DNA from: Ruminococcus sp.
Lineage (GTDB): Bacteria; Bacillota; Clostridia; Oscillospirales; Ruminococcaceae
DNA length: 40,714 nt
Direction of reading: 5' to 3'
Assembly (NCBI GenBank): GCA_017534595.1
Contig: JAFXVY010000012.1
Location: 1-40,714, forward strand
The notes beneath the pieces were generated by a model. The model ran no database searches. It saw only the letters and a program-made list of their open reading frames with translations, and was not told the DNA's origin. Made by a program: the position numbers and the translations under genes. Positions 4,481 through 29,603 of the stretch are shown here, piece after piece (within the stretch, counting starts at the first letter, position 1; every line of letters starts with the position of its first letter).

Positions 4481-4535
4481 ATAATGTGGTATGTAATATC
4501 GGCTCGGATAAGGCCGGAAGAAGGGAGGCGGAAGC

Positions 4536-5495
4536 TTGAACAGCATAGGGTCTGATAATATCTGCTTCGCGGATTTTGAGTTCACCTGCGGTTTCTATGA
4601 CGATAAGGCAAGGAGCGAGCTGCTCAGCGTCGGGCTCGTGTTCTGTTCGGCGGATCACACCGTCCTCGAGACCTTCTACCGCACCGTGCGCCCCTGTATC
4701 CGCCGCAAGCTCACAAAGCAGTGCCGTAAGCTAACCAAGCTCACGCAGGAGGAAATAGACGCCTCGGTGGACTCCGATATCGTCATGGCGGAGGTCATGA
4801 GGCTCGTAAAGAAGCACGGTATCTCCGAGATAGGCGTGTGGGGCAACTTCGACCGCCCCGGGCTGCTCTCAGATATCAGGCAGCACGCCCGCGCAGGGCT
4901 CAGCGCCCCCAATGTCAGCAAGGTGCTCAGGCTCGTAAGGGATATCCAGAACGAAACGATCAGAGCCATGAACCTCCCGCAGGCAATAAATATCAAGGAT
5001 CTCGCCTCGGCCTTCGGCTATGTCCCCGAGTCGGGGACCTTCCATAACGCCCTCAACGACGCTATGGCGCTCTATACAGTATCAAAGGCCGTCCATACGA
5101 CGGATATTTTCAGCTGTGAGGGCTTTCTCGCGCTCCGGCAGCAGCGCCTCGACAAGATCGAAGCGGACAAGCGTGCCGCCGAGGAGCGCCGCCGCCAGCT
5201 GACGCTGCTCATCCCCTTCACGCCGCGTGAGCAGACCTTCTTCGGCAAGCTGACCTCCGAGGCAGACAGGGAGGATTATCTGCGGCTGCGCTTCCGGATA
5301 ATGAATATGTTCCAGCGCTTCCCGTCGGAGGAGAGCTTCAAGTTCATCATCCGCCACGCCCCCCGCAGAACAGGCATCGCCGCCGCATCCAAGTTCGATC
5401 CCAACCGCTACCCCGGCGCCGACGTCATAGATTTCGACCGCACCGACTTCGACCGCATCCTGCTCTCCGAGAGCCGCCGCCGCCAGCCGGTGTAA
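4536..5495 (+). CDS. DEDDh-type 3'-5' exonuclease
   Basis: The 319-residue protein starts with TTG, supported by GGGAGG eight bases upstream. Residues 8-185 form an RNase T/DnaQ-like fold. ADFEFTCGFYD near residue 12 supplies the first acidic pair, LTQEEIDAS the usual middle segment, GVWGNFDRPGL the second aspartate motif, and HNALNDAMALY the histidine and last aspartate. This family removes nucleotides from 3' ends of RNA or DNA; which substrate is used here cannot be told. Residues about 200-319 are an Arg-rich extension with no recognised domain, unlike the compact KapD/Eri-1-like proteins. The gene has its own promoter and is divergent from spoVAC. A role in small-RNA or repair metabolism is open. 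Confidence 0.85.
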   Translation: MNSIGSDNICFADFEFTCGFYDDKARSELLSVGLVFCSADHTVLETFYRTVRPCIRRKLTKQCRKLTKLTQEEIDASVDSDIVMAEVMRLVKKHGISEIGVWGNFDRPGLLSDIRQHARAGLSAPNVSKVLRLVRDIQNETIRAMNLPQAINIKDLASAFGYVPESGTFHNALNDAMALYTVSKAVHTTDIFSCEGFLALRQQRLDKIEADKRAAEERRRQLTLLIPFTPREQTFFGKLTSEADREDYLRLRFRIMNMFQRFPSEESFKFIIRHAPRRTGIAAASKFDPNRYPGADVIDFDRTDFDRILLSESRRRQPV

Positions 5496-5499
5496 CAAT

Positions 5500-5565
5500 G
5501 CACAGCGTCTGAACGGACATCCCGTGCGCCTCCGGCGCACACCTCAATTATTCATCAGTATTTAT
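5500..5565. repeat. Dispersed repeat, copy 2 (hairpin plus ATTATTCAT tail)
   Basis: The segment AATGCACAGCGTC, the hairpin GTGCGCC-TCC-GGCGCAC (5524-5540) and the tail ACCTCAATTATTCATCAG resemble the arrangement at 15340-15441 and 37650-37750. It fills the gap between the exonuclease gene and the next operon. The hairpin could also act as a weak terminator, but no T tract follows. Confidence 0.5.
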
Positions 5566-5590
5566 TTTTCACTATTATAGGAGGGATAAT

Positions 5591-6652
5591 ATGCCAATAC
5601 CTTTTCTGATCGGCGGACTCGCGTCGATAATGGGGAAAAACAAAAACAATTCCGTCAAGGAGGCAGTCAAGAGGCATAACGGCAACCTCGAGAAGCTCCG
5701 GATCAAGGAGGCCGACTGCACTCAGGCCATGCAGCTGCTCAGAGACGAGAAGACCAACTCGCTCAAGGCGCTCGGCAGCGTTGCACAGCGGACTTCCGAG
5801 TATCAGAACAAGCCCGATTTCGGCTATATCAGCTTCTCGAACGTAAGGCTGCTGCCCTATGACGAGGAGCAGCTGACCAAGGCCGCCTCGGATACCGATT
5901 GGTTTCTGAGCAGCCTCCGGGACGACGCCGGCAGCTATCTGATCGAGAATGCCGCCTCCATAACCATCTCCGAGGATGCCGACAAGGCCTGGAACGAGAT
6001 GGCAGAGGCCGAGAAGAAAATCTATAAGAGCTTCGAGTATTACGATAAGGTGCAGATCCTTGCCGAGCAGCTCACCGTCTCGATGGCGGCGGTAAGAGAC
6101 CTCCTCGAGAAGCATATCGGCGTCCTTGACGCTTTCAAGCAGAAAAACGGCAAGACCGACTGGAACTCCTTCAACGATACCGAGCGCTTTGCCGTTCAGA
6201 ATACCGTTCAGCTCGCCTCTATGCTCTATGAGATGTGTACCGTCTCCGTTATCAAGGAGAAGGAGGGCGAGGACGACCTCGAATGGATCAACCGCAGCGA
6301 GGTCCGCGCCGTTATGGATAAGGCCGAAGCCCTGTGCGACAACAAGGGCTTTGAGTATAACGACGACACCTACGACGTTATCCTCCGCGGCGACGCAAAG
6401 AGCTATTTCTCCTACCGTTACCGCCTCGAGGACAGGCTCGTCCAGATGCTCCCCATAGCTCCCGGCGAGGCCGCACCGATCCTCGAGAAGCTCCGCATGA
6501 ACGCCAACGTCTCAATAGCGCAGGACGTTACCCACCTCCATGCAAGAGCCGTCCTCGACAGGCTGCGCGATATCGACATCAAGTCCCAACGCGTGCCCTC
6601 TCCCGACGAGAAAAGCATATTCTATATCGAACTTGTAAGAAAGGAAGTATAA
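5591..6652 (+). CDS. Protein of unknown function, first gene of a four-gene run
   Basis: I do not recognise this 353-residue protein. GGAGGG precedes the ATG by six bases. The N-terminus (MPIPFLIGGLASIMG) is hydrophobic but short, followed by a charged helical stretch (residues 18-60) that could form a coiled coil. The middle is rich in Glu, Asp and Lys. The C-terminal region (about 285-345) has amphipathic helices and a short strand pattern ending in SIFYIELVRKE. No signal peptide or catalytic motif is evident, so a cytosolic or membrane-peripheral protein is likely. Only three bases separate it from the TerB-like gene, so the two are almost surely co-translated and may act together. Confidence 0.6.
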   Translation: MPIPFLIGGLASIMGKNKNNSVKEAVKRHNGNLEKLRIKEADCTQAMQLLRDEKTNSLKALGSVAQRTSEYQNKPDFGYISFSNVRLLPYDEEQLTKAASDTDWFLSSLRDDAGSYLIENAASITISEDADKAWNEMAEAEKKIYKSFEYYDKVQILAEQLTVSMAAVRDLLEKHIGVLDAFKQKNGKTDWNSFNDTERFAVQNTVQLASMLYEMCTVSVIKEKEGEDDLEWINRSEVRAVMDKAEALCDNKGFEYNDDTYDVILRGDAKSYFSYRYRLEDRLVQMLPIAPGEAAPILEKLRMNANVSIAQDVTHLHARAVLDRLRDIDIKSQRVPSPDEKSIFYIELVRKEV

Positions 6653-6655
6653 ACC

Positions 6656-7057
6656 ATGTTTCTGAACAGACTTTCATCCGAGCAGAAGGAGCTCTTCCTT
6701 GATATCTGCATCCATGCCTCCAAGTCCAACGACAATTTCTCCGACGAGGAAAAGCTCGTTATCGAGCAGTACTGCGACGAGATGCACATAGACGTCCGCT
6801 TCGACGAGAACAACCCCGCCGACGAGGCCGCCGCCAAGCTCGCAGAGCTCAGCACCCCCACCGACCAGCGTATAATCCTGCTCGAGACCGCTTCCCTGCT
6901 GCTCTCGGACAACACATACGACGAGGACGAGAGAGCTTTCTACGAGAGCCTCGCCGCCAAGCTCGGCGTTTCCCGCGAGCAGGCAGATTCCGTGATCCCC
7001 ATGATCGGTGAGCTCACCGACCTCTACGGCAGGATCAACGAGTTCGTTTTCGGATGA
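6656..7057 (+). CDS. TerB-like acidic helical protein
   Basis: The 133-residue protein is all helical and very acidic. It looks like the TerB/DjlA-N fold: a first helix pair LFLDICIHASKSNDNFSDEE, then a second copy-like segment LLLSDNTYDEDERAFYESLA, each with the acidic turn expected for a divalent-metal site. TerB domains occur in stress and membrane-surveillance systems and often accompany unknown partners. The gene follows the 353-residue protein by three bases and precedes a lipoprotein gene by ten bases. The ribosome site is GAAAGGAAG. The assignment rests on the repeated D/E-rich helix-turn pattern and size; its biochemical role is unknown. Confidence 0.7.
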   Translation: MFLNRLSSEQKELFLDICIHASKSNDNFSDEEKLVIEQYCDEMHIDVRFDENNPADEAAAKLAELSTPTDQRIILLETASLLLSDNTYDEDERAFYESLAAKLGVSREQADSVIPMIGELTDLYGRINEFVFG

Positions 7058-7067
7058 CGGCTGAGCT

Positions 7068-8555
7068 ATGAGACCTTCAAAACGGCTGCTCGCCCTCTCC
7101 GCGGCGCTCTGCCTGATACTCGGCGGCTGCGCTCCCGGAAGCGGCGAGAGCTCATCCGAGGCTGAAAAAGCCGCCGATACCTCCCCGCAGACCTCCGTTC
7201 AGACGGAGGCTCCCGCCGAGACAGTCACCTCCGGCAGCGAGACCGTTACCTCCGCCCCGGAGACCGACTCGGCTGACACGACCGCAGAGCTGATCGTGAC
7301 CGAGCCCACCTATGAGGAGCTGCGGATGCGAAAGGTCAACGCCGCTGCGGATCTGCTCCCCGAAAAGGAGCTTTCAAACGGCAGCCTCAGGCTGCTCGAG
7401 GTCTCGCAGACCTCCCCCGCCGCGAATGCACCGCAGCCAGTCGCGGAGGAGCTTTTCACCGCAAAGTACGGCGTCCCGGTCGAGCATATTTACACCGACT
7501 GTAACGGGCGCTTCGATATGCTCGCTTCGCTGTCGCTCTCGGGCAAGTCCCCCGACCTGTTCCCCATAAACGGCACCGACGCCTTCCCCATAGGCGCGGT
7601 CAAGGATATGTTCCGGCCGGTGGGAGACCTTGTCGGAGAATACGGCCTGCCACCCGCGGAGGACAGCCTCGCCTGCAATTTCGTCTTTGACGGCATACTC
7701 TACGGCATAGCTGTCGAAGCGGAGCCCAAATATCTGTGTTATTACGGAACCGAGTCGGTCAGCTCGGCAGGTCTCGACGACCCCGCCAGGCTGTTTCTCG
7801 GCGGCCGCTGGGACTATAACGCCTTCGAGCGCCTCTGCTCGGAGTACTGTCAGCAAAGCGGCAGGATAGGCCTCGGCGGTTACGATTACCCACAGGCTCT
7901 CACCGAAGCGGGCGGCAAAGCCCTGCTCTCGGTGCGCGACGGCCTTGTGGTCTCGGAGCTTGAAAGCTCCCGCATCGCCGACGCTCAGGATCTGATACTC
8001 TCCCTCAAGCAGAAGGGGCTCAGCTATAACGGCCTCGACGAGACCTTCGTCAGCGGCGGTCAGCTGCTTTTCTGCCCCGCAGGGTATTCAGCCGTTACAG
8101 GCTCCCTCGCCGCAGATATCGCCGACAGTAAGATAGGCGCGGTACCCGTGCCGTCGCCTGAAAGCGCCGGAGGGCAGTATATGCCCGCCGAGGTGCGGGG
8201 TTATTACCTCTGCGCCGCCTCGCAGAATGAGGACGCCGCCCTGATCTATGCCCTGTGCGACAAGCTCACCGCGGATATCCGCTTTGAGGATCTGCTCCAT
8301 GACCTCGGCGCTCCCGATAAGAACGCCGACCTCGCCGACTGCCTGACCGAGTGCCGGCGCCTTGCGAACGAGGCTCCCGTCTTCGGCTGCACCGGAGGTA
8401 TGCCCGCCGAGGAAATAAATATGATGACCGGGCAGCTGCTCTCCATGACAGCCTCGGGTAATGCCGCCAACTGGGCGGAAGCCGTTGCGGCAGCCCGTAC
8501 CCAGCTCGAGTACGCTGTTGCCCTCGTCAACGATACCGAACCTGCCGGGCCGTGA
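7068..8555 (+). CDS. Lipoprotein related to extracellular solute-binding proteins
   Basis: The 495-residue product has a lipoprotein signal peptide ending in the lipobox LILGGC (Cys near residue 21). A Ser/Thr/Glu/Pro linker follows (about 22-85), then a region like family 1 solute-binding proteins: a lobe-opening segment FTAKYGVPVEHIYTD, the LASLSLSGKSPDLFP stretch, and a late EVRGYYLCAAS segment. Sugar-type ABC importers use such proteins outside the membrane, but no permease or ATPase gene lies nearby, so it may be an orphan receptor. It begins ten bases after the TerB-like gene and has a weak ribosome site, consistent with coupling. Ligand unknown. Confidence 0.7.
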   Translation: MRPSKRLLALSAALCLILGGCAPGSGESSSEAEKAADTSPQTSVQTEAPAETVTSGSETVTSAPETDSADTTAELIVTEPTYEELRMRKVNAAADLLPEKELSNGSLRLLEVSQTSPAANAPQPVAEELFTAKYGVPVEHIYTDCNGRFDMLASLSLSGKSPDLFPINGTDAFPIGAVKDMFRPVGDLVGEYGLPPAEDSLACNFVFDGILYGIAVEAEPKYLCYYGTESVSSAGLDDPARLFLGGRWDYNAFERLCSEYCQQSGRIGLGGYDYPQALTEAGGKALLSVRDGLVVSELESSRIADAQDLILSLKQKGLSYNGLDETFVSGGQLLFCPAGYSAVTGSLAADIADSKIGAVPVPSPESAGGQYMPAEVRGYYLCAASQNEDAALIYALCDKLTADIRFEDLLHDLGAPDKNADLADCLTECRRLANEAPVFGCTGGMPAEEINMMTGQLLSMTASGNAANWAEAVAAARTQLEYAVALVNDTEPAGP

Positions 8556-8581
8556 CCCGGCTATGAAACGGAGATATGACT

Positions 8582-9517
8582 ATGCAATATGTGATGCTGA
8601 TAGTGGGCTTTATAATGCTCATCAAGGGCGCCGACCTGTTTGTTGACGGCAGCTCGGGACTTGCAAAGCGCCTTCATGTGCCCACAATGGCTATCGGCCT
8701 GACCGTCGTGGCTATGGGGACGAGCCTTCCCGAGGCCGCCGTGAGCGTCAGCGCCGCCGTTCAGGGACGAAACGATATGGCTCTGAGCAACGCTCTTGGC
8801 TCCAATATGTTCAACATTCTGGCGGTAGTGGGCGTCTGTGCGATGATCGCACCGATCTCGATAAAGAAGTCCACGCTCCTGCATGAGTTCCCGATGTCGG
8901 TGATCGTGGTCGGAGTGCTTCTCGCCATGGGCCTTATCGGAAACAGCGTTGACAGGATCGACGGCATCATCCTGATCGGCCTGTTTCTGGTGTTCATGTT
9001 CTATACCGTGACCGCCGCCAAGCGCAGCCGCATCAGCGAGTCTGCCGAGCCGGTCACCCGCAGGATAATGCCCGGAGGGCAGTGCGCGTTCCTGATAATC
9101 TTCGGCGCAGCCGCGATAGGCTTCGGCGGATACTTCACCGTTGACTCCGCCGCAAGGATCGCCCGCAGCTTCGGGATCTCCGAGAACGTCATCGGCCTCA
9201 CGATAGTCGCCGTCGGCACAAGCCTGCCCGAGCTGTTCACCTCGATAGTCGCCGCCAAGAAGCGCGAGACCGATCTTGCGCTCGGAAACGTCATCGGCTC
9301 AAATATCTTCAATATACTCTTTGTTCTCGGCTCCGCATCGGTCATCTCTCCGATCAGCTTCCTGAGAAACAATATGATCGACTCGATCGCCCTGATCGCC
9401 ATGAGTATACTGACTGTCTGCTTCTGCGCCGAAAAACGCCGCCTCAGACGGTGGGAGGGCGCAGCCATGGCAGCTGTCTACATCGGCTATATCATCTATA
9501 TAACCGTCAGAGCCTAA
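8582..9517 (+). CDS. Na+/Ca2+-exchanger-family (CaCA) membrane antiporter
   Basis: The protein belongs to the YrbG/CaCA family, which swaps calcium or sodium against protons or sodium across the membrane. Both alpha repeats are plain: GTSLPEAAVSVSAAVQGRND with ALGSNMFNILAVVG in the first half, and GTSLPELFTSIVAAKKRETD with VIGSNIFNILFVLG in the second. The acidic residues in the two GTSLPE motifs are the ion ligands. About ten membrane helices fit 311 residues, a normal length. The ATG at 8582 sits eight bases after GGAG; the ATG two codons earlier is too close. The gene closes the run that starts at 5591. The transported ion is not certain. Confidence 0.9.
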   Translation: MQYVMLIVGFIMLIKGADLFVDGSSGLAKRLHVPTMAIGLTVVAMGTSLPEAAVSVSAAVQGRNDMALSNALGSNMFNILAVVGVCAMIAPISIKKSTLLHEFPMSVIVVGVLLAMGLIGNSVDRIDGIILIGLFLVFMFYTVTAAKRSRISESAEPVTRRIMPGGQCAFLIIFGAAAIGFGGYFTVDSAARIARSFGISENVIGLTIVAVGTSLPELFTSIVAAKKRETDLALGNVIGSNIFNILFVLGSASVISPISFLRNNMIDSIALIAMSILTVCFCAEKRRLRRWEGAAMAAVYIGYIIYITVRA

Positions 9518-9541
9518 AGCGCTTGCATTTTTCAAAGCGCT
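9518..9541. promoter_or_regulatory. Small inverted repeat across the serS -35 region
   Basis: AGCGCTT (9518-9524) and AAGCGCT (9535-9541) form a 7-bp inverted repeat right after the antiporter stop codon and over the serS -35 box. It may be a weak terminator or an operator. The link to either function is a guess. Confidence 0.3.
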
Positions 9542-9551
9542 GTGCTATAAT
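9523..9551 (+). promoter_or_regulatory. SigA-type promoter of serS
   Basis: TTGCAT (9523-9528) and TATAAT (9546-9551) stand 17 bases apart, with a TG one base before the -10 (extended -10). The leader to the ATG is under 40 bases, which leaves no room for a T-box. Confidence 0.8.
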
Positions 9552-9589
9552 GTATTGGTAATCTTAAACTCTTAAAGGAGAGATATAAA

Positions 9590-10876
9590 ATGCTGGATAT
9601 CAAGCTTTTCAGAACGGATCCCGAGCTGATAAAGGAGAATATCAGAAAGAAATTTCAGGACGACAAGCTCCCCCTCGTTGACGAGGTAGTCGCCATGGAC
9701 GCGGAGTACCGCGCCACCAAGACCAAGTGCGACGAGTACAGAGCCAGAAGGAACAAGCTCTCGAAGGAGATCGGCGGCCTTATGGCAAAGGGTCAGAAGG
9801 AGGAGGCCGAGAAGGTCAAGGACGAGGTCAAGACCCTCGGCGAGGAGCTCCCCAGGCTCGAAGCCCGCGAGGCAGAGCTCGAGGAGGAGATCAAAAAGAG
9901 AATGATGGTCATCCCGAACATCATCGACCCCTCGGTGCCGATCGGCAAGGACGATTCGGAGAACGTCGAGATCGAGAAGTTCGGCGACCCCTTTGTACCC
10001 GATTTCGAGGTACCCTACCATGTTGACATCATGGAGCGTCTCAACGGCATCGACCTCGATTCCGCAAGAAAGACCAGCGGCAACGGCTTCTACTACCTCA
10101 AGGGCGATATCGCAAGGCTGCATTCGTCGATCCTGTCCTATGCGAGAGACTTCATGATCGACCGCGGGTTCACCTATTTCATCCCGCCGTTCATGATCCG
10201 CTCGGCTGTTGTCAACGGTGTTATGAGCTTCTCCGAGATGGAGAACATGATGTACAAGATCGAGGGCGAGGATCTCTACCTTATCGGTACCTCGGAGCAC
10301 TCGATGATAGGCAAGTTCATCGACACCATAACACCCGAGAGCGACCTCCCGCAGACCCTCACGAGCTACAGCCCCTGCTTCCGCAAGGAAGTCGGCGCCC
10401 ACGGCATCGAGGAGCGCGGAGTATACCGCATCCACCAGTTTGAGAAGCAGGAAATGATAGTAGTCTGCAAGCCGGAGGACAGCAAGGCATGGTATGACAA
10501 GCTGTGGCAGAACAGTGTAGATTTCTTCCGCACGCTGGACATCCCGGTAAGAACTCTTGAGTGCTGCTCGGGAGACCTTGCGGATCTGAAAGTCAAGAGC
10601 TGTGATGTAGAGGCATGGAGCCCGAGGCAGAAGAAGTACTTTGAAGTCGGCTCCTGCTCGAACCTTGGAGATGCGCAGGCGAGGAGGCTTGGCATCAGGA
10701 TCAAGGGAGAGAAGGGCAACTACTACGCGCACACCTTAAACAACACAGTTGTAGCGCCTCCGAGGATGCTGATAGCGTTCCTTGAGAACAACCTTAACGA
10801 AGACGGGAGCATCAGGATCCCGGAGCCTTTAAGGATGTACATGGGTGGAAAGAGCAAGATAGAGGTACCGGAATAA
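9590..10876 (+). CDS. serS: Serine-tRNA ligase
   Basis: Charges tRNA-Ser with serine in two steps through seryl-adenylate, in the cytosol. The 428-residue length is normal. Residues 1-110 form the long tRNA-binding coiled coil (rich in KEE/EAE). The class II core follows, with motif 2 at FRKEVGAHGIEERGVYRIHQ and a motif 3 of the form NNTVVAPPRMLIAFLEN, where the family's usual G-x-G-x-x-x-x-x-R becomes PPR. AAAGGAG precedes the ATG. The last 120 codons use CTT, TTA, AGG, GGA and GTA far more than the front of the gene does. The gene has its own promoter and ends just before a 3'-end hairpin element. Confidence 0.95.
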   Translation: MLDIKLFRTDPELIKENIRKKFQDDKLPLVDEVVAMDAEYRATKTKCDEYRARRNKLSKEIGGLMAKGQKEEAEKVKDEVKTLGEELPRLEAREAELEEEIKKRMMVIPNIIDPSVPIGKDDSENVEIEKFGDPFVPDFEVPYHVDIMERLNGIDLDSARKTSGNGFYYLKGDIARLHSSILSYARDFMIDRGFTYFIPPFMIRSAVVNGVMSFSEMENMMYKIEGEDLYLIGTSEHSMIGKFIDTITPESDLPQTLTSYSPCFRKEVGAHGIEERGVYRIHQFEKQEMIVVCKPEDSKAWYDKLWQNSVDFFRTLDIPVRTLECCSGDLADLKVKSCDVEAWSPRQKKYFEVGSCSNLGDAQARRLGIRIKGEKGNYYAHTLNNTVVAPPRMLIAFLENNLNEDGSIRIPEPLRMYMGGKSKIEVPE

Positions 10877-10889
10877 CCGCAGAAAGCAT

Positions 10890-11045
10890 AGACCAAAACG
10901 CGAAGCGAAATGGGGTCAAGGGGGCTTTGCTCCCTTGCGGGTCGAGGGCAGAGCCCCGCAGGGTCAAGGGACAGAGTCCCTTGCAGAGTGTGAGACAGAG
11001 TCTCACTCGGAGCGTCAGCTCCGACCACGGCTCCGCAGGCACTGA
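10890..11045 (+). repeat. 3'-end hairpin element, copy A2 (downstream of serS)
   Basis: The element starts with GACCAAAACGCGAAGCGAAA and continues as about five tandem hairpin units. Examples are AAGGGACAGAGTCCCTT and GTGAGACAGAGTCTCAC, where the stem changes on both sides and the CAGAG loop stays. Each unit is flanked by GGTC-RAG and CTYGC-RG sequences. It ends in CGGCTCCGCAGGCA, matching the end of copy A3 in the opposite orientation. It begins 13 bases after the serS stop codon and is followed by terminator T1. Short open frames here are repeat-driven. Confidence 0.8.
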
Positions 11046-11060
11046 TAACTCAATACAAAC

Positions 11061-11100
11061 AAGGCGCTGCGCCCAAAAATCAAAGGGCACAGCGCTTTTT
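11061..11100 (+). terminator. Terminator T1, serS transcript
   Basis: Stem AAGGCGCTGCGCCC / GGGCACAGCGCTT, loop AAAAATCAAA, then T residues. The same hairpin recurs at 11531-11578 and 12297-12333. Confidence 0.8.
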
Positions 11101-11530
11101 GTATCTGTATGCAGTTATAGGGACTATCATTCGCAGCGCCGACAAGGCAGTTCGTCGCCCGCACTCCCAGAAACAGAGAGCGAGCACCGCGAGCGAACGT
11201 TTTTCGTCCGGCTCCGCACCCGAAGGGGTTCGGGGGCGACCGGAAAGCCCCCGAGACAGGGCGGGCGTCTTTGCTTTCGGCCTATACGAAGTCGAGAGCG
11301 TGAATTGCAGAACAGCTTACGGTCTTATTTAACGCCGCGGCGCGCCCACACAGCACGTCACCCGCAGACAGTTAAGCGACCGGAGGGAGCGTGACGCGAA
11401 TTGCGCCGTCCGCGCCGAGGACCCGGACGGAATTACCTCGGATGCGTTCGCATCCTCACTATTCCTGTGCCTGCGGGCAACATAGGGAGTTACGGCGCTG
11501 CGATTATTAGTCCCCACAGCATAGCAAAAA
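11101..11530. repeat. Non-coding spacer with repeat B and a 23-base shared repeat
   Basis: About 430 bases with no gene that I can support. It holds repeat B (11210-11296), which recurs at 26342-26426, and 11403-11425, an exact 23-base match to 291-313. The remaining sequence is rich in GC palindromes such as GATGCGTTCGCATC. Possible remains of an insertion, but no transposase remnant is readable. Confidence 0.55.
11210..11296 (+). repeat. Repeat B, copy 1
   Basis: About 85 bases beginning GGCTCCGCACCCGAAG and including GACCGGAAAGCCCCCG, GACAGGGCGGG and TGCTTTCGGCC. It is closely similar to 26342-26426 in the same orientation. It includes a small inverted repeat (CCCGAA ... TTCGGG). Confidence 0.75.
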
Positions 11531-11578
11531 ACAAGGCGCTTGTGCCCTTTGATTTATGGGCGCAGCGCCTTGTTTGTT
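11531..11578 (-). terminator. Terminator T2, dCMP deaminase transcript
   Basis: In minus orientation the stem is AAGGCGCTGCGCCC / GGGCACAAGCGCCTT followed by GTTTTTTG. It is the same hairpin as T1, placed after copy A3 of the 3'-end element. Confidence 0.8.
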
Positions 11579-11584
11579 TTGATT

Positions 11585-11705
11585 TATGATTGCCTGCGGA
11601 GCCGTCGGGGCTCTGCCCCGTACCCCGCGAGGAGGGCTCCGCCCCCTCGACCCCCGCAAGGGGGAAGCGTCCCCCTTGACCCCATTTTGCTTCGCGTTTG
11701 GAGTC
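11585..11705 (-). repeat. 3'-end hairpin element, copy A3 (downstream of dCMP deaminase)
   Basis: Read on the minus strand it starts immediately after the stop codon: GACTCCAAACGCGAAGCAAA. Three hairpin units follow (stems AAGGGGG...CCCCCTT, GAGGGGGC...GCCCTCCTC and CGGGGCAGAGCCCCG). The end is CGGCTCCGCAGGCAATCAT, then T2. It is the mirror-oriented sister of copy A2, so both convergent genes carry the element in their own 3' orientation. Confidence 0.8.
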
Positions 11706-12185
11706 TTATACCTCTATTGTTATGGAGCGGCCTGTCGGCTCGTACCTTCTCAGAGTCACCCCGGACATGGAAAACATCAGCTTCGACGCCTTTACGCCGT
11801 CAGTGTCCGCGTACTTGTCATCACCGTATACAACTTCCTTGATCCCCGCCTGTATTATCGCCTTCGCACATTCGTTGCAGGGAAACAAAGAAACGTAGAT
11901 CCGCGCGTTTTTCAGGCTCCCTGCCGAACGGTTCAGTATGGCGTTGAGCTCTGCGTGACATACAAAGGGGTACTTCGTTTCAAGAAACGCTCCCTCGCGC
12001 TCCCACGGCATCTCATCATCGCTGCAGCCGGTCGGCATACCGTTGTAGCCTACCGACAGGATCTTGTTTTCATCGGATACGATGCACGCTCCGACCTGCG
12101 TGTTGTTGTCCTTGCTCCTGCCCGCCGAAAGCAGCGCGATACCCATAAAATACTCGTCCCAGCTGAGATAGTCCTGACGCTTCAT
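11706..12185 (-). CDS. comEB: dCMP deaminase
   Basis: Converts dCMP to dUMP, supplying substrate for thymidylate synthesis. The 159-residue protein has the cytidine/deoxycytidylate deaminase zinc site: H77-A-E79 (CHAELNAI) and PCNEC (C103, C106). Glu79 is the proton shuttle. NTQVGACIV and GYNGMPTGC are typical of this branch. The ATG at 12185 is chosen because AAGGAGG lies eight bases before it; in-frame codons further up lack a ribosome site. The gene stands alone and converges with serS, ending in a copy of the hairpin element. In Bacillus subtilis this gene is comEB; a competence role here is not implied. Confidence 0.95.
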   Translation of the reverse strand: MKRQDYLSWDEYFMGIALLSAGRSKDNNTQVGACIVSDENKILSVGYNGMPTGCSDDEMPWEREGAFLETKYPFVCHAELNAILNRSAGSLKNARIYVSLFPCNECAKAIIQAGIKEVVYGDDKYADTDGVKASKLMFSMSGVTLRRYEPTGRSITIEV

Positions 12186-22026: not shown

Positions 22027-22122
22027 TAGGCAACACCGCACAACCCACGGCTAAAGCCTCTGCACGTCATCTACTTGCATATTTTTCGTATCTGACGCAC
22101 AGGGGTTGTGCGGTATTGCCTA
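22027..22122. mobile_element. MITE-like element, copy 1
   Basis: About 94 bases bounded by inverted repeats GGCAACACCGCACAACC (left) and GGTTGTGCGGTATTGCC (right), differing at one position, with TA on each side as expected for a TA target duplication. The centre holds AAAGCCTCTGCACGTCATC and TTGCATATTTTTCG. No coding capacity. It lies directly between comF and the sulfatase-fold gene. The same ends recur at 40577 in inverse orientation. Confidence 0.8.
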
Positions 22123-22157
22123 TACTGTGGATAAAAAACATGAAAGCAGAGGAAGTA

Positions 22158-23966
22158 ATGGACAGTAACGTTACAACCGAGGCCGGGGCTCCCCGCTCCG
22201 GCCAGTTCAGACATTTCAGCAGACAGCGGGTGCTGTTCGCGGCTGCGGTGAGCATAGCGGCGGCGCTTATGCTGCTGTTTTTCTCGCCCATGGAGATCGC
22301 GCTGAAAAACCCGCAGGAATTCACCGTCAAGGCGGGGGATATGGCGCTGCCGCTGCTGCTGTGTGCGGCGGCTGTGGCAGCAGTTTCAACTCTTGGGCTG
22401 CTCATAACGCTGATGATCTGCGAAAAGCTGTTTTTCGTGCTCTCGCACCTGATGCTCGGGCTTATGCTGGCATTCTATGCGCAGACGCTGTTTTTAAACG
22501 GCTCGATGCTCGAGCTCACCGGCGACGGGATACACAACGCCTCGACGGGCGGGGTGATAATAAACGCTGTGATCTTCACGGTCATCACGGCGGCTCCGCT
22601 AATAATAGCCGCTGTACGCAGGAAAAAGGCGGGGGGCAGGGCTCCGAAGGGCTTTGAGGCTTACCTGCCGGCTTACATCTGCGGTGCGGTGACGGTCATG
22701 CTCGGGATAGGCTTTACAGGCTCAATGGGCTCGGCGGAGGATATAACCGCCGACAGGCCGTATAACTCGGTCTTTACCTATGACCCGATGACCTCCTTCT
22801 CGAAGGAGAATAATGTGGTTATCTTTATCTTCGACAGGCTCGACAGCCGGTGGTGCGACAATGCGCTGGCGGAGTACCCCGACCTTAACGAGAAGCTGGC
22901 GGGCTTTACCTTCTATCAGAACAATATGCCCCACTACTCAAACACATTCCCCTCGGTGCCGTCGATGCTGACGGGGTACTATTATGACGATTACGACAAC
23001 GCCTCGAAGGTCGCATACCTTACAGCGGCGTGGGACAGGAATACCCTGCTCGACGAGCTGCACAACAACGGCGTTAAGGTCAACCTGGCACTCGACGCTG
23101 CGGCGAGCTATGTCTCCGCAGATCAGCTCGAGGGGCGCTGCGACAATCTTATGGACGACGAGCACTTCCAGTCGGGCTTCAACTATTTCGGAGAGCACGG
23201 CATCCTGCTGACGATGTCAAAGCTCTCGATGGCAAGGCTGGCTCCCTACTGTCTGAAATCAGTATTTGCGGGAGACCTCGCCTCCGACCTGTCGTCGCGG
23301 TTCATTTTCTACGACAGCGACGCCGTCAGGGGGATAGTTCCCGCGGGTGTGGGCGTGGGCTCGGACAAGGAGTTCTATAACTTCATCTCCGGCAGCAGCT
23401 TCGATGCCGACAGCTCAAGCCCTGTCTTTGACATCATCCACTTGAACGGCGCTCACTCCAAGGATGAGGAGATCACCGCCTACTACTGCGGCGACAAGGA
23501 AGTCGAGACTACACTCTATACCACGATACGCGGGGAGTTCGAGATCATATTCAGATACCTTGACGAGATGAAGCGCCTCGGCGTCTACGATAATTCGACG
23601 GTCATCATCATGGCGGATCACGGAAAGGTACACACCGAGCTCGACCTCGACCGCAAGGACAGGATCGAGCACGAGAACGTGGCGGCGCTTCTCATAAAGC
23701 CCGCCAACGCCGGGGACGCCCCCCTGAAAACAGACAGCGTCAGCGAGCTCTCAAATGACTACACCGCGGCAAGCGTACTCGGGTATTTCGGGCTGGATCA
23801 CTCCGGCTTCGGGTACTCCTTTGAGGATATAGTAAACGGGCAGCTGCACGTTACAAGATACTTCAACCCCTTCCGCTGGAGCAAGGGCGACGCCTACGCC
23901 AAGCTCAGCAAATACAGGGTAACGGGCGACGCCCGGGACTTCTCCAACTGGGAAGAATACGAATGA
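22158..23966 (+). CDS. Membrane sulfatase-fold protein, LTA-synthase-like
   Basis: A polytopic membrane protein with an extracytoplasmic alkaline-phosphatase/sulfatase domain, as in lipoteichoic acid synthases. Of 603 residues, about the first 195 hold five or so membrane helices. Then NVVIFIFDRLDS gives the first metal aspartate and MPHYSNTFPSVPSM the Thr/Ser nucleophile site. IIHLNGAH is a likely histidine ligand, and VIIMADHGK the Asp-His pair. LTA synthases transfer phosphoglycerol from phosphatidylglycerol onto a growing chain; this substrate is inferred. The ATG at 22158 follows AGAGGA; an earlier Met lies close to the MITE. Only 22 bases separate it from the next gene. Confidence 0.8.
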   Translation: MDSNVTTEAGAPRSGQFRHFSRQRVLFAAAVSIAAALMLLFFSPMEIALKNPQEFTVKAGDMALPLLLCAAAVAAVSTLGLLITLMICEKLFFVLSHLMLGLMLAFYAQTLFLNGSMLELTGDGIHNASTGGVIINAVIFTVITAAPLIIAAVRRKKAGGRAPKGFEAYLPAYICGAVTVMLGIGFTGSMGSAEDITADRPYNSVFTYDPMTSFSKENNVVIFIFDRLDSRWCDNALAEYPDLNEKLAGFTFYQNNMPHYSNTFPSVPSMLTGYYYDDYDNASKVAYLTAAWDRNTLLDELHNNGVKVNLALDAAASYVSADQLEGRCDNLMDDEHFQSGFNYFGEHGILLTMSKLSMARLAPYCLKSVFAGDLASDLSSRFIFYDSDAVRGIVPAGVGVGSDKEFYNFISGSSFDADSSSPVFDIIHLNGAHSKDEEITAYYCGDKEVETTLYTTIRGEFEIIFRYLDEMKRLGVYDNSTVIIMADHGKVHTELDLDRKDRIEHENVAALLIKPANAGDAPLKTDSVSELSNDYTAASVLGYFGLDHSGFGYSFEDIVNGQLHVTRYFNPFRWSKGDAYAKLSKYRVTGDARDFSNWEEYE

Positions 23967-23988: not shown

Positions 23989-24276
23989 ATGAAAGGGATC
24001 ATAACCGCCGTATACGCGGTCTGCATCGCACTGATACTTTCGGTCAGGGCTGAGGCCTATATCGACCCCGCCACCACCAGCTACATCATACAGATAGTTG
24101 CAGGCGTGGTCATCGCGGTGGGCACGGTATTCGGCATCTACTGGAAGAAGATCAGGGGCAAGGTCAAGAAAAAGCAGGAGCCCGACGATCTCCCGCCTGC
24201 GGAACAGGGCGGCGTCAACGACGGCGAGAAGGATGTCATCACCGCAGAGGATCTGCTCGACGACGAGGATAAGTGA
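23989..24276 (+). CDS. Small membrane protein between the envelope genes
   Basis: The 95-residue protein has an N-terminal signal-like segment (KGIITAVYAVCIALILSV ... AEA) and a second helix IIQIVAGVVIAVGTVFGIYW followed by KKIRGKVKKK and an acidic tail. YIDPATTSYIIQ before the helix is a motif I recall from small proteins adjoining sulfatase-fold genes in clostridial clusters, but I cannot name the family. GGAGG precedes the ATG. It is 22 bases after the sulfatase-fold gene and 18 bases before the fusion gene, so all three are one unit. A role in holding the polymerase and transferase together is a guess. Confidence 0.7.
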   Translation: MKGIITAVYAVCIALILSVRAEAYIDPATTSYIIQIVAGVVIAVGTVFGIYWKKIRGKVKKKQEPDDLPPAEQGGVNDGEKDVITAEDLLDDEDK

Positions 24277-24294
24277 CCCCGGGAGGATAAGGAA

Positions 24295-26340
24295 TTGTCT
24301 TATGTCATCAGCGCCATAGGCCGCCCCCTCGGCGGGCTTATGAGCTTAATTTTCGATCTTATCGGGAACTACGGGCTGAGCATCATAGTCTTTACGCTGC
24401 TCACCAAGGTCATACTCTTCCCGATAAGCATGGTAACGCAGAAGAACTCGATAAACATGGTCAGGCTCATGCCCGAGGAGAACGCCATCAAGATCAAGTA
24501 TATCGACGACAAGGAGAAGCTGGCCGACGAGCAGCTCAAGCTCTACAAGCGCTATCACTATCACCCGCTGCTGAGCGCGGTGCCTCTGCTTCTGCAGATC
24601 CCGCTGATACTCGGGCTGGTGTTCGTGATCTATCACCCGCTGAGCTATATACTGCAATTCGACGCGGATGTGATCTCCGGGCTCAAGGAGTGGCTCGGGA
24701 CGGTCGCCTCCGGCGGAGCGCTTGAAGAAAACAGCTATCAGCTCGAGATCATCAGCCGCATAAAGGACGGCATCGCCCCCGACGGAGCATTTTTAAGCTC
24801 GGCTGTCGCGGGGATAAGGGAGCTCGATACCTCCTTCCTCGGCTTTGAGCTGAGCCTTACGCCTTCATTCAAGGAGAATTACATACTGCTGCTGATACCC
24901 CTGTTCTCGGGGCTCTCGGCATGGCTGCTCTGCTTCGTGCAGAACCGCATAAACATCCTCCAGATCACTCAGGGCAGGATCACAAAGACCGTCTCGACAG
25001 TGTTTCTGGTCGCCTTCTCGACCTACTTCGCGTTCCTCGTGCCCGCAGGCGTGGGGCTCTACTGGATATTCGGAAATCTCTTCGCCATACCCTCGATGTA
25101 CCTGCTCAATATCGTGATAGACCCGAAAAAGCATATCGACTACAACTACCTCAAGCGCATGAACGAGCAGCGCATCGAAAAGGAGCGGGAGCACAGGAAA
25201 TACGTCTCGCGGGAGAGAGCCGACTACAAGCGGTTCTTCACCGTGCAGGACATGAAGCTGATGTTCTATTCCGAGTCAAACGGGTTCTACAAGTATTTCA
25301 AGGGCATGATAGACTACATCTGCGAGAACTCCGACCTTGTCATACACTACGTCACGAGCGACCCGAACGATAAGATCTTCGAGGATCCGAGAGAGCAGAT
25401 AGTGCCCTATTACGTGGCCTCGAACAAGTTTTTGATACCGCTTTTCATGAAGCTCGACTGCCGGATGTGCGTGATGACGCTGCCTGACCTTGAGAAGTAT
25501 CACATCAAGCGCTCGAGGGTCAGCAAGGACGTTGAGTACGTCTACGCCTGTCACGGTATGGGCTCGCTCTCGACCTTCCGCAAGGGAGCGTTCGACTGGT
25601 ACGACACGATCCTCTGCCCGGGGATAGATCAGTTCAACGAGATCCGCGCGACGGAGGAGGTCTACGGGACAAAGAAGAAGCGTCTCGTAGAGGCGGGGTA
25701 CCCGCTGATAGACGAGATGCTTGAAAAATACGAGAGCGAGGAGCATCCTGAGAACGCCCGCCCGCGGATACTGATAGCGCCCTCCTGGCAGGCGGACAAC
25801 ATCATTGATCTGTGTGCGGAGGAGCTGCTCGACTCTTTAAAAACTCTGGACTGCGAGATCATACTGAGACCGCACCCGCAGCAGGTAAGGCACGAGCCGG
25901 AGAAGTTCGAGGAAATGAAAACCCGGTTTGCGGATGTGCCGAACATAGAGATACAGACGGATTTCTCGTCGAACAACCCGATAATGGAGTCGGACATCCT
26001 CATTACCGACTGGTCGGACATAGGGTGGGAGTTTGCGTTTGTGACGAAGCGGCCCGTCCTTTATATCGACACGCCGATGAAGGTAATGAACCCGGAGTAC
26101 GAGAAGATCGGGATAGAGCCGATAAACCGGTCTTTGAGGACGGTTCTGGGGGAGGTCATTGCTCCGGATGAGCTTGAAAAAGTGCCGGAGACGATAGGAT
26201 ATATGCTTGGGCACAGGGAAGAATACCGGGAACGCATTGCCGCGGCATTTGAGGAGCACGTATACAACATCGGGAAGAGTGCGAAGCTGTGCGGGAGGTA
26301 TGTTATAAAGAGATTGACGCCGGCAGCCAAGCAAAGCTGA
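24295..26340 (+). CDS. YidC/Oxa1-like insertase domain fused to a CDP-glycerol glycerophosphotransferase domain
   Basis: The 681-residue protein starts with TTG, with GGAGG eight bases before it. Residues 1-275 match YidC: LSIIVFTLLTKVILFPISM, QKNSINMVRLMPE, LYKRYHYHPLLSAVPLLLQI and VPAGVGLYWIFGNL, with about five helices. A charged linker (KRMNEQRIEKEREHRKYV) leads into residues 310-670, a TagB/TagF-like transferase. The signatures are YACHGMGSLSTFRKG, ILIAPSWQ, ILRPHPQQVRH and DILITDWSDIGWEFAFVTK. Normally these are separate proteins. The transferase part would sit on the cytosolic face and use CDP-glycerol. Codon use shifts over the last 180 codons. The gene ends directly before repeat B. 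I cannot tell whether the insertase part is active. Confidence 0.85.
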   Translation: MSYVISAIGRPLGGLMSLIFDLIGNYGLSIIVFTLLTKVILFPISMVTQKNSINMVRLMPEENAIKIKYIDDKEKLADEQLKLYKRYHYHPLLSAVPLLLQIPLILGLVFVIYHPLSYILQFDADVISGLKEWLGTVASGGALEENSYQLEIISRIKDGIAPDGAFLSSAVAGIRELDTSFLGFELSLTPSFKENYILLLIPLFSGLSAWLLCFVQNRINILQITQGRITKTVSTVFLVAFSTYFAFLVPAGVGLYWIFGNLFAIPSMYLLNIVIDPKKHIDYNYLKRMNEQRIEKEREHRKYVSRERADYKRFFTVQDMKLMFYSESNGFYKYFKGMIDYICENSDLVIHYVTSDPNDKIFEDPREQIVPYYVASNKFLIPLFMKLDCRMCVMTLPDLEKYHIKRSRVSKDVEYVYACHGMGSLSTFRKGAFDWYDTILCPGIDQFNEIRATEEVYGTKKKRLVEAGYPLIDEMLEKYESEEHPENARPRILIAPSWQADNIIDLCAEELLDSLKTLDCEIILRPHPQQVRHEPEKFEEMKTRFADVPNIEIQTDFSSNNPIMESDILITDWSDIGWEFAFVTKRPVLYIDTPMKVMNPEYEKIGIEPINRSLRTVLGEVIAPDELEKVPETIGYMLGHREEYRERIAAAFEEHVYNIGKSAKLCGRYVIKRLTPAAKQS

Positions 26341-26583: not shown

Positions 26584-27123
26584 TCAACATTTGTTCAGTA
26601 TCTTCGCAGCCTTCAATATCGCCAGCTGCGTCTTCGCATCAGGATATCTCCCCGCGTAGACGTTCTCTAACGCTTCCTCAAACGGCAGCTTTATCACATC
26701 TATGAATTCGTCTTCGTCAAGATCTCTGTCTCCGAAATGAAGATCTCTCGCAAGATACATATGGATGACCTCCGTGTCATACGCCACCGTCGGGTACAGA
26801 CACCCCAGATATTCAAAGGAGCCCGCCTCCGCACCGATCTCCTCACGGAGCTCACGCAGACCGCATTCGCGGTGATCCTCGCCGTATTCGAGCTTGCCTG
26901 CGGGGATCTCTTCAAGCACCCTCCCGAAAGGATACCGGAACTGCCTTACCATATAGATCTCGCCCTTGTCGTTCACAGGCACTATACATACCCCGCCCGG
27001 GTGCTTTATCAGCTCGCGGACGGCTTCCCTGCCGTCTTCAAGCTCGACCTTGTCCACAAACAGCTTGACTACTATGCCGTCAAACTTCTGCTCGCTCGAA
27101 AGCGTCTTTTCATCAAGATGCAC
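26584..27123 (-). CDS. Nudix hydrolase, ADP-ribose pyrophosphatase type
   Basis: Cleaves ADP-ribose or a similar nucleoside diphosphate derivative. The 179-residue protein has the full Nudix box Gx5Ex7REUxEExGU (GKLEYGEDHRECGLRELREE) near residues 82-101, preceded by EIPAG, as in NudF-type enzymes. It starts with GTG at 27123, within the end of the preceding gene; AAAGGAGG lies about nine bases upstream, inside that gene. The 11-base overlap implies translational coupling with yfhO-like. A link between the two functions is not known. Confidence 0.9.
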   Translation of the reverse strand: MHLDEKTLSSEQKFDGIVVKLFVDKVELEDGREAVRELIKHPGGVCIVPVNDKGEIYMVRQFRYPFGRVLEEIPAGKLEYGEDHRECGLRELREEIGAEAGSFEYLGCLYPTVAYDTEVIHMYLARDLHFGDRDLDEDEFIDVIKLPFEEALENVYAGRYPDAKTQLAILKAAKILNKC

Positions 27124-29539
27124 TTGCTTCGGCCTCCTTTTTCTCTTTCTTCTTCCTCATCGCATAGTCCGCTGCGATATATCCGCCGAAGAGCACTATG
27201 CCCGCGACGGTGAGCAGCCTGCCCGACGTGAGGCCGGTAGGCTTGAAGTTGAAGCGTATCTCATGGTCGCCCGCAGGTACGCAGACCGCCATGAAGCCGT
27301 AATCTACCTTTTCGATGTCAACGGGATTGCCGTCCACCTCCGCGCTCCAGCCGTCCTCGTAAGGTACGGAGAAGAACACCAGCTTGGGTGCGTCGAGGTC
27401 TATCCTGGCGGTAAAGCCGTCGGAGCTGTAATCGAAGCTGTAGCAGCACTGCTCCTGCTTCTTCTCGCAGTCGGCAAGGTAGAGCTTCTTGGTAACTGCG
27501 GTCTCACTGCGGTCAAATGCGTTGAGCATCGAGCCGTATTTCTTTACCTGCTCTTCGTCAAGCAGTATGGAGTGCATGAGCAGCGTTGCCTTGTCAGCGT
27601 CCGCCTGGAGCTCCATATCGAGCTCGGTGCAGTAGGTGTCGTAGGCTATGCCCATGGGTACGAAGGCCTTGTTCTCGTAGATATAGAACTTGTTCTGTGT
27701 CCCGACATACTCGAAGTCCACGAGCCCTGCGATCTCTTCCGGCGGCGAAGGCGGCTCCTCACCGGAGATCTGCTTGTCGGTGAATTCCTTGAAGTAATAC
27801 TTGACCGAAAGCAGTCCTCTGAGGGCATAGAGCTTGGTATCTATACGCGAGGCAACATCTCGGGTCTGACCGAGCTTGGTATAGAAGTCCATGATAGAGG
27901 TGGGCACGACGCTGTGGAAGGTCCTCATGGAGCTCAGGCCCCAGTACATACACCAGTTATCGACGCTCTCGGAGGTATCTATACGGTAGAAGGTATTTTC
28001 GACGCCCGAGGTATCGCCGTCATAGACCGAGAGATCGACCTTCTCGCGGCCGTTTACGGCTCTTTCGATATAATCTGCGTTATCGTCGCCCTGCACAACG
28101 CCGTAGATGACGGAGCTCATCATGCAGACCGCGCAGGCAACAGAGGTCATTATGCACAGCGAGACATATCTTCTGCGCTTGTCCTTGGCGACCTTATAGA
28201 CCGCAAAGAACAGCATTACCGTCATGACGCAGGTGACTATCGCCTGGATATAATAGAGCTCGGGATACTTCGGCACCTTGCCCCAGACGAGCTCGTCGTT
28301 GACCTGCTTGGGCAGTATGCCTATGCCGATGAATATCGCGGCTACGGCGGCGCAGGGGATGAAGCCCTTTTCGAGGGCATCCTTGTCCTTGTCTATGACC
28401 TGAGCCGTCATCAGGCACATTATCAGTATCGGCATATAGTACCAGCGGGCATAGTAGCTGCTGTTGAAGAGTATGAACGAAGCGTTGAGCACGGGTACGC
28501 AGGCCATGATGATGCTGATTATTATCATCTTGTTCTGCCACTGCTTCTTTCTCGTTCTCATGAAGGCTATGACGCCGCACATCGAGAACATCGGCAGGTA
28601 GCCCGCCATAGACGCCCATCTTGCCCTGTCGGAGTTGAGGATGTTGACTCTTGCGGGCATATCCGAGAGCATGAAGAAGGCCTGGAAGATACGCGGTATG
28701 CGGACATTCTCGCTGTATATCGCCATATCTATGCCCCAGAGGTATCTTGCGACTCTCGGGTTGGCGAAGACTTCCATTATCGCCGGCAGGAGTATCGCCA
28801 TTGAGATCATGAAGCCGACTATCGCCTCGAACAGCAGGCAGAGGAAGGTCCTCCGGGTGACGCCGAAGTCCTTGTCTGTACACCGGACGAAGAAATAGAT
28901 GATGAGGAAGACTACCTCCTCGACGAAGAAGAAATAGCTTATCGTGGCACTGAGCGCCACGGCGAGTGCAAAGGGGCCTTTTTTCTTATCCTTGATGACC
29001 ATTTCCATACCGAGGAGCATCAGCGGGAAGAAGGCCGTAGCGTCGTGGAAATGGTTGAAGAAGACGTTATAGGTCTGGAAGCCGGAGAAGGCATAGAGCA
29101 TCGAGCCTATGAAGCAGGCACTTTGGCTCTTAACGAAGCGCCTGATGTAGGCGTAGGCGCAGACAGCCGCAACAGCCGTCTTGAGAGCGAGCATCCAGGG
29201 CATCAGGTAGGCTACGGCGCCGAGGGGGAACAGCCTTGTCAGCCAGAAGAAGGGGCTGCCCAGCAGATAGAAGGAATATGAGCCGATGAAGTTCGCGCCG
29301 AGGTCGGTGCCCCAGTCCCAGCCGGAGAGGCCGCCCTCGCTGACCACCTCGTTGGCGTGGTAGTAGAACATCATCTGCTGCGAATTGAAATCGCCGTAAT
29401 AAAGGAATATGCCCCTGTTGAACACCATTGACGGTATGAAGCTGAGCATCATCGCGGCAAAGGCGGTGATGAACAGCGTCAGATAGAGCTCCTTTTTCTT
29501 CTGACCGGAGCTTTTCAAAAATCCTGTTTTTCCGAACAT
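27113..29539 (-). CDS. YfhO-family polytopic membrane protein
   Basis: A GT-C-like membrane protein; in Bacillus, YfhO is implicated in glycosylation of lipoteichoic acid. The 808-residue protein has at least 12 helices. FLYYGDFNSQQMMFYYH lies in the first loop, with the catalytic-loop Asp candidate in it. DWGTDLGANFIGSYSFYLLG follows, and MLYAFSGFQTYN and NHFHDATAFFPLML come further on. The last 200 residues are an outer beta domain (VPAGDHEIRFNFKPTG) and one final helix. The ATG at 29539 is picked since GAGAGGA lies eight bases upstream. It fits the envelope theme of the window, and the LTA-synthase-like operon ends just across the terminator. Confidence 0.85.
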   Translation of the reverse strand: MFGKTGFLKSSGQKKKELYLTLFITAFAAMMLSFIPSMVFNRGIFLYYGDFNSQQMMFYYHANEVVSEGGLSGWDWGTDLGANFIGSYSFYLLGSPFFWLTRLFPLGAVAYLMPWMLALKTAVAAVCAYAYIRRFVKSQSACFIGSMLYAFSGFQTYNVFFNHFHDATAFFPLMLLGMEMVIKDKKKGPFALAVALSATISYFFFVEEVVFLIIYFFVRCTDKDFGVTRRTFLCLLFEAIVGFMISMAILLPAIMEVFANPRVARYLWGIDMAIYSENVRIPRIFQAFFMLSDMPARVNILNSDRARWASMAGYLPMFSMCGVIAFMRTRKKQWQNKMIIISIIMACVPVLNASFILFNSSYYARWYYMPILIMCLMTAQVIDKDKDALEKGFIPCAAVAAIFIGIGILPKQVNDELVWGKVPKYPELYYIQAIVTCVMTVMLFFAVYKVAKDKRRRYVSLCIMTSVACAVCMMSSVIYGVVQGDDNADYIERAVNGREKVDLSVYDGDTSGVENTFYRIDTSESVDNWCMYWGLSSMRTFHSVVPTSIMDFYTKLGQTRDVASRIDTKLYALRGLLSVKYYFKEFTDKQISGEEPPSPPEEIAGLVDFEYVGTQNKFYIYENKAFVPMGIAYDTYCTELDMELQADADKATLLMHSILLDEEQVKKYGSMLNAFDRSETAVTKKLYLADCEKKQEQCCYSFDYSSDGFTARIDLDAPKLVFFSVPYEDGWSAEVDGNPVDIEKVDYGFMAVCVPAGDHEIRFNFKPTGLTSGRLLTVAGIVLFGGYIAADYAMRKKKEKKEAEASAS

Positions 29540-29603
29540 CTCAGATTTCCTCTCCCTAAGAGTTGACGTCACCCGCAGGCGCGGGCGGCAAATACCAAAG
29601 ACT

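Follow-up and report, generated by a model that had tools for sequence, protein, structure and literature searches.

YidC inserts small membrane proteins, enzymes of the TagB/TagF type act in the cytosol on lipid-linked glycans, and transferases of the AlkP superfamily, such as LtaS, take head groups from lipids. Oxa1-family proteins scramble lipids in vitro. For purified YidC, such scrambling is described in PMC10491306. For phosphocholine, a 2023 survey (PMC10434233) describes PptA with phosphatidylcholine as the donor and holds that novel phosphocholine pathways may remain. As of 2019, it was described as not known by which steps aminoethylphosphonate (AEP) gives rise to surface phosphonates (PMC6697681). 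Here I describe a locus in which these protein families meet. The window, that is, the whole stretch of DNA analysed (40,714 nucleotides of a Ruminococcus sp. draft assembly), contains the following features.

22116..23966, plus strand: membrane-anchored AlkP/sulfatase-superfamily protein, 616 aa, with five hydrophobic segments and a long domain predicted to lie outside
22944..22946, plus strand: predicted nucleophile Thr277 of the AlkP protein, from the alignment of 83 rows
23989..24276, plus strand: small YIDP protein, 95 aa, with a signal-peptide-like segment ending in A-E-A, the YIDP motif, a hydrophobic helix and a basic stretch
24281..24286, plus strand: ribosome-binding site GGGAGG, read from the sequence, 8 bases 5′ of the TTG start
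24295..26340, plus strand: YidC~Glyphos fusion gene, 681 aa, TTG start, no internal stop
24370..25110, plus strand: YidC/Oxa1 core, residues 26-272 (Pfam 60KD_IMP, 3.9e-31)
24406..24408, plus strand: Lys38, at the position of the YidC groove arginine in the alignment
25201..26337, plus strand: Glyphos_transf domain, residues 303-681, predicted to be cytoplasmic

The initial annotation had claimed a single-frame fusion of YidC with a glycerophosphotransferase-family protein, and this is borne out by the 681-aa ORF, in which 60KD_IMP and Glyphos_transf both exceed their gathering scores. The insertase model yidC_oxa1_cterm of NCBIfam (TIGR03592) gives 100.5 bits against a cut-off of 84.3. The Pfam Glyphos_transf match spans residues 451-590 (1.2e-11), and the family (PF04464) scores 44.6 bits against the curated 22.1 with only profile positions 147-291 covered; the relative at locus L101 covers positions 14-349. 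Judged by its sequence, the window protein is thus a member of both families. A rough hydropathy plot gives five hydrophobic segments within residues 1-275 and then a long hydrophilic tail; together with the 60KD_IMP and TIGR03592 matches, these segments indicate that the homologous five-TM insertase core is present. The positive-inside pattern places the C-terminal end of the core in the cytoplasm. Since the hydrophilic tail follows the five segments, the Glyphos domain should be cytoplasmic. The loop between TM2 and TM3 (residues 113-196) is about 84 aa long and is mostly absent from many Lachnospiraceae-type fusions.

Is this architecture found elsewhere? Among 100 relatives searched (the window's own genome included), four other genomes have the fusion: G014, G007, G061 and G041, with 84%, 61%, 45% and 44% identity, respectively. 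The G041 fusion has no TM2-TM3 loop. One contig, G009:C61 (L035, L042), carries a remnant of the module: close behind a YIDP frame, no more of the Glyphos part is left than its C-terminal ~105 residues, as a deletion or a collapse in the assembly would leave it. A scan of genome contigs, with a profile built from five fusions and limited to their C-terminal part, found 419 stretches encoding relatives of that part, and the best-scoring 80 were analysed; the weaker relatives may be unfused. In all of the best-scoring 80 loci, YidC and Glyphos are encoded in one frame, the YidC part being cut by the contig end in L065 and L095. These loci come from 77 assemblies, as counted by accession prefix. 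Most of the carriers are MAGs from the gut and rumen and belong to the Clostridia and Erysipelotrichia (Ruminococcus, Lachnospiraceae, Oscillospiraceae, Solobacterium and Erysipelotrichaceae), and according to the record names they include the cultured isolates Ruminococcus YRD2003, FC2018 and MC2020 and Lachnospiraceae G41. The source of the window is a draft assembly of 144 contigs, which might raise the suspicion of a misassembly or a chance read-through joining two genes; however, the same architecture across the best-scoring 80 loci, cultured isolates among them, makes such an artefact barely conceivable and excludes an assembly error or a gene split in the relatives, as the initial annotation had considered. 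The fusion is real and conserved.

In an even sample of the order, 15 of 245 genomes have the C-terminal family, all 15 with the YidC part in one of two arrangements (the YidC gene of G172 is cut by the contig end). In an even sample of the phylum, it was found in 6 of 398 genomes, where G672 has no adjoining YidC and G611 is a contig-end fragment. A mobile element was considered and rejected, as none of the 20 matching plasmid records covers 80% of the fusion. Three short, unannotated faecal records named 'Bacteriophage sp.' (MT836947, MT838376 and MT836777) encode the Glyphos part with 44-50% identity; these are perhaps bacterial fragments in viromes.

The fusion is not simply the housekeeping insertase with an extra tail, a possibility that the initial annotation had left to a check for a second, plain YidC. 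The window's genome has a separate plain YidC, a 458-aa frame at G000:C132. In a tree of 70 rows, the fusion YidCs group together (support 100/96) and 26 housekeeping YidCs fall outside this group, with the ORF at L040 3459-5624 counted as a fusion and not among the 26. The plain YidC in the same genome and the separation on the tree rule out the housekeeping role. The genome also has three further Glyphos_transf matches, on two contigs.

It was found that the fusion gene belongs to a module. The initial annotation had recognised the fusion gene and missed its two partners, the AlkP-family protein (22116-23966) and the YIDP protein (23989-24276). Within the stretches compared, a YIDP protein lies near 72 of the 80 fusions and an AlkP protein near 52. 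The parts of the module, namely the YidC fold, the Glyphos domain, the LtaS-like AlkP-family membrane protein and the single-helix YIDP segment, are joined differently in other lineages. In 10 of the 80 loci YIDP and AlkP are one protein, and in L043, L153-L155, L157-L159, L189 and L190 a YidC~AlkP protein adjoins a YIDP~Glyphos protein. A single case, L101, has AlkP~YidC~Glyphos in one chain of 1204 aa, in which four of the five YidC segments reach the hydropathy threshold. Re-fusion in other combinations across lineages is a usual sign that the parts work together. The predicted topologies are compatible, with the AlkP domain outside, the Glyphos domain inside and the N-terminus of YIDP outside. 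A signal-peptide-like A-x-A often precedes the YIDP motif, and a signal peptidase I-like gene, so named by sequence resemblance without a family search, is near 15 of the 80 loci. Downstream of the fusion, on the opposite strand, the window has a NUDIX hydrolase (26584-27123, minus strand) and a YfhO-family membrane protein (27113-29572, minus strand); YfhO has been linked to teichoic acid glycosylation in other bacteria.

What might the two catalytic parts do? In the Glyphos domain, H420, R525-P526-H527-P528 and D572-W573-S574 are found in 82 of 82 alignment rows. This alignment omits L038 and L049 (both the G014 relative with 84% identity) and L063, which is from the contig of the retained L039; the closest relative, G014, is therefore absent from it and is present in alignments A1 and A2. 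L065 was omitted from the columns up to residue 90, the contig-cut L095 was kept as a gapped row, and alignment A3 is a subset of 71 of the 82 rows. Against canonical TagF relatives, the domain gives a modest match (hhalign 80%, 153 columns), and its 5-row profile matched no PDB chain up to an E of 10. For the AlkP protein, 83 proteins longer than 450 aa were aligned, a set in which one locus may contribute several paralogues and a few contigs are duplicated. The nucleophile position is Thr in 78 and Ser in 5 of them, and D240, H447, D501 and H502 are found in all 83; the roles of these residues (Thr nucleophile and D-H metal site) are presumably those of LtaS. Among PDB entries, the AlkP profile matches the lipoteichoic acid synthase 2w5r best (1e-11). 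Sulfatases and a phosphonate monoester hydrolase come next and match nearly as well as the other LtaS entries; MCR-1 gives 0.003. Because the sulfatases and the hydrolase also match, the transferase role of the AlkP protein, as opposed to a hydrolase role, is putative.

Clustering of the neighbouring genes gave a clue to the substrate. Nucleotidyltransferases (LicC/PntC-like), choline kinase, a BCCT transporter, PEP mutase-CTP_transf fusions, phosphonopyruvate decarboxylase (Ppd), PhnW, and a CobD-like PLP enzyme fused to a LicC-like domain recur near the modules. Such head-group genes adjoin 36 of the 80 loci and 1 of 47 control loci. The count of 36 is descriptive, as the families were picked for their recurrence at these very loci. 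The control loci add up to less DNA (368 kb, as opposed to 896 kb): 20 are arbitrary contig stretches (225 kb), 24 are loci of a housekeeping YidC, each 3-4 kb long, and 3 are of other kinds. The sole match among them is a weak PhnW-like one in an arbitrary stretch. The classes overlap among the 36 loci: PEP mutase in 10, AEP-type in 13, choline-type in 8, CobD-like in 12 and LicC-like in 31. Ten of the 13 AEP-type loci have PEP mutase, and L086, L120 and L121 have a PhnW-like aminotransferase only. The CobD-like label lies below the NCBIfam cut-off (184-188 bits against 290.55). Within the stretches compared, 44 of the 80 loci have no head-group gene, and none adjoins the module of the window. 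Among further loci (L153-L167 without L163, which is on the same contig as L096), head-group genes adjoin 10 of 14.

At L115, the module adjoins PhnW, PEP mutase-CTP, LicC-like and Ppd genes, with PhnW, PEP mutase and Ppd above the NCBIfam cut-offs. In G546, the clearest example, two modules on one contig have different sets: L189 and its LicC/PntC-like, PhnW, PEP mutase-CTP and Ppd genes form one run on the same strand, whereas L190 adjoins BCCT, LicC-like and LicA genes. Two MAGs also have two modules each with different supply (CobD-like at L108 and AEP at L123; choline at L114 and CobD-like at L118), provided that the binning is correct. A methyltransferase family adjoins the LicC-like genes at L079, L080, L082, L087, L108 and L125, the CobD-like fusion being visible in 5 of the 6; it perhaps N-methylates a phosphoethanolamine-like group. 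At L188, in G672, a Glyphos gene, a PEP mutase~NTP transferase, Ppd, LicC/PntC-like and PhnW genes lie in one run (2676-11721), followed by a membrane protein of Pfam Sulfatase and a second similar-looking one, and no YidC was found within 13 kb.

In the order sample, PEP mutase or choline kinase is found in 9 of 15 carriers and 21 of 230 other genomes (Fisher p 5.7e-6, with kinship uncorrected and the two families picked for their recurrence at module loci). Neither was found in the other 6 carriers at the thresholds used. In the window's own genome, contig C36, separate from the contig of the module, brings together LicC-like, PhnW, PEP mutase-CTP and Ppd genes; PhnW and PEP mutase exceed the NCBIfam cut-offs, and the LicC-like and Ppd genes were identified by phmmer only. 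LicD gave no match in this draft genome (93% complete), which is one of 7 among the 15 carrier genomes where LicD was not found.

The initial annotation had the system hand glycerophosphate chains across the membrane, that is, a teichoic-type polymer made from CDP-glycerol. The Pfam family label Glyphos_transf speaks for this, as do the resemblance of the AlkP neighbour to lipoteichoic acid synthase and a TagD in the window's genome. However, a TagD-type glycerol-3-phosphate cytidylyltransferase exceeds the curated cut-off in no more than 4 of 24 carriers, of which the window's own genome is one, and 8 of the 24, some of them incomplete drafts, have no match at an E of 0.001. Moreover, the window genome's TagD adjoins an ordinary Glyphos_transf protein on a different contig from the module, and the genes that adjoin 36 of the 80 modules would supply CMP-aminoethylphosphonate, CDP-choline or perhaps an ethanolamine-type donor. 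Glycerophosphate is thus probably the wrong substrate, and I regard the CDP-glycerol reading as unlikely, although a CDP-glycerol donor keeps some probability for the window itself, its genome having a TagD. One further point in its favour comes from the Glyphos tree. I attempted to predict the head group from this tree, which failed for the AEP and CobD-like labels, as they scatter like shuffled ones (14 changes against 13.3 for AEP; 10 against 10.7 for CobD-like). The choline label alone clusters (6 against 10.6), and all labels together give 15 against 19.3. The scatter indicates that Glyphos sequence and head group do not vary together, as they might if this domain chose the donor. Frequent change of head group among close Glyphos relatives means one of three things: the transferase is lax, another part makes the choice, or the donor is constant, the last of which would suit CDP-glycerol.

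The reading that I favour, with close to an even chance of being right, is that the module forms a four-part transmembrane relay that decorates the cell surface with small zwitterionic head groups of the phospho or phosphono type. Cytosolic enzymes, whose families are found at the loci, would make CMP-aminoethylphosphonate, CDP-choline or a CDP-ethanolamine-like donor by the chemistry established for the Lic and Pnt pathways. The Glyphos domain, held at the cytoplasmic face by the YidC fold, would load the head group on a membrane acceptor, most likely a lipid. The YidC fold and the YIDP helix might then let the lipid-borne group reach the outer leaflet, and the AlkP protein, with its LtaS-like Thr/Ser site outside, may move the group from the lipid to a surface glycan, as its family suggests. 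A cytosolic transferase fed by CDP or CMP donors and tied to an AlkP-type enzyme points to a carrier in the membrane that is produced on the inner side and consumed on the outer one; with YidC at the crossing and the scrambling activity of YidC in mind, a relay with YidC as path or scaffold is favoured. Against the relay count the frequent change of head group on the Glyphos tree, the loci without head-group genes (the window's among them) and the run at L188 without YidC. For the window organism, AEP is predicted as the head group.

The role of the YidC fold within this relay is a separate matter. A scaffold or lipid channel for a surface step, as the initial annotation had proposed, still appears to be the best reading of the insertase fold, without the glycerophosphate chains as cargo. 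As for the proposed check of the conserved groove arginine, the positive charge is kept, as Lys in 79 of the 80 rows with a residue there and as Arg in one. In the 82-row alignment, Lys38, N51 and Q101 are almost invariant, and S52 is near-invariant along with N51 in the YidC part of the fusions. In the YidC~AlkP type (L043, L044, L153-L159), whose YidCs form a distinct, long-branched group, the groove charge position is Asn in 9 of 9.

These residues bear on three roles. As a dedicated insertase, the YidC part would insert the YIDP or AlkP protein, the fusion merely coupling the timing. That YidC is known to insert small membrane proteins counts for this, as does the charge retained as Lys; in PMC8920935, only Lys among the residues tested functionally replaced R366 of E. 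coli YidC, in a Y517A background. But a housekeeping YidC is already present, and YIDP fused to AlkP or Glyphos, and YidC to AlkP elsewhere, look like subunits and not clients. The nine YidC~AlkP proteins without the charge also count against it, though not decisively, as the loss can be tolerated (PMC8920935). This role seems improbable. Alternatively, the fold may be only an anchor and docking platform: a lipid-linked glycan would be decorated inside and exported by another flippase, with AlkP acting separately. The cytosolic action of TagB/TagF-type enzymes counts for such a scaffold, and the Asn in 9 of 9 YidC~AlkP proteins suggests that the standard groove may be dispensable. The run at L188, with AEP genes, Glyphos and a Sulfatase-family protein together without YidC, points the same way and indicates that YidC is not always part of the system. 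On the other hand, Lys38, N51 and Q101 are kept more strictly than an anchor would seem to require, and one helix suffices as an anchor in the YIDP~Glyphos type. I consider the scaffold-only role somewhat unlikely. The role that I tentatively prefer, at less than an even chance, is that of a dedicated lipid conduit: the lipid would be loaded inside, passed through the groove and discharged outside via the LtaS-like enzyme.

In the open-licence literature, no title or abstract opening was found on a YidC fusion concerned with glycerophosphotransferase, CDP-glycerol, teichoic acid, phosphonate or phosphocholine, in keeping with the earlier suggestion of an undescribed system. I know of no described system that the module fits, given its insertase fold, its AlkP-family protein and the lack of a LicD match in the window's genome. 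The system may be new as a kind, its function being deduced from sequence; on a stricter view, it may be one more way of tailoring surface head groups. For the transfer steps, the module provides candidates in common gut and rumen bacteria, some of whose genomes have no LicD. If the conduit proposal is true, the module would be a surface-coating machine of a plug-in kind, in which exchange of the supply operon next to it changes the head group. It would place an insertase-family protein in a biosynthetic pathway, and a biological use of YidC lipid scrambling would become testable.

In summary, the module resembles four known systems in part. Like the YidC/Oxa1/Alb3 proteins (SpoIIIJ of B. subtilis and YidC of E. 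coli), the fusion has 60KD_IMP, the five-segment core and a groove charge, as Lys; unlike them, it has a transferase as its C-terminal tail, its own clade, a near-invariant N51/S52 and a second, plain YidC in the same cell. Like TagB/TagF (PF04464), it exceeds the Pfam cut-off and has the His, HP and TDxS motifs, which are also found in the other members of the window's genome; unlike them, the domain is borne on a YidC fold and often adjoins AEP or choline supply genes, with TagD in 4 of 24 carriers. The AlkP neighbour shares with LtaS, MCR-1 and PptA the N-terminal hydrophobic segments, the AlkP domain, the Thr/Ser nucleophile position and the D/H residues, but its similarity to LtaS (1e-11) and MCR-1 (0.003) is weak, and it comes linked to a YidC fold and a YIDP helix, in some cases within a single chain. 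The choline kinase, PEP mutase, Ppd, PhnW and LicC/PntC-like genes are those of the Lic-1/Pnt pathways (PMC6697681); activation genes adjoin 36 of the 80 modules, and the window's genome has its own set on C36. In contrast to these pathways, LicD was not found in 7 of 15 carriers, the window's genome among them, and a Glyphos domain stands in the place of LicD, with AlkP and YidC parts added.
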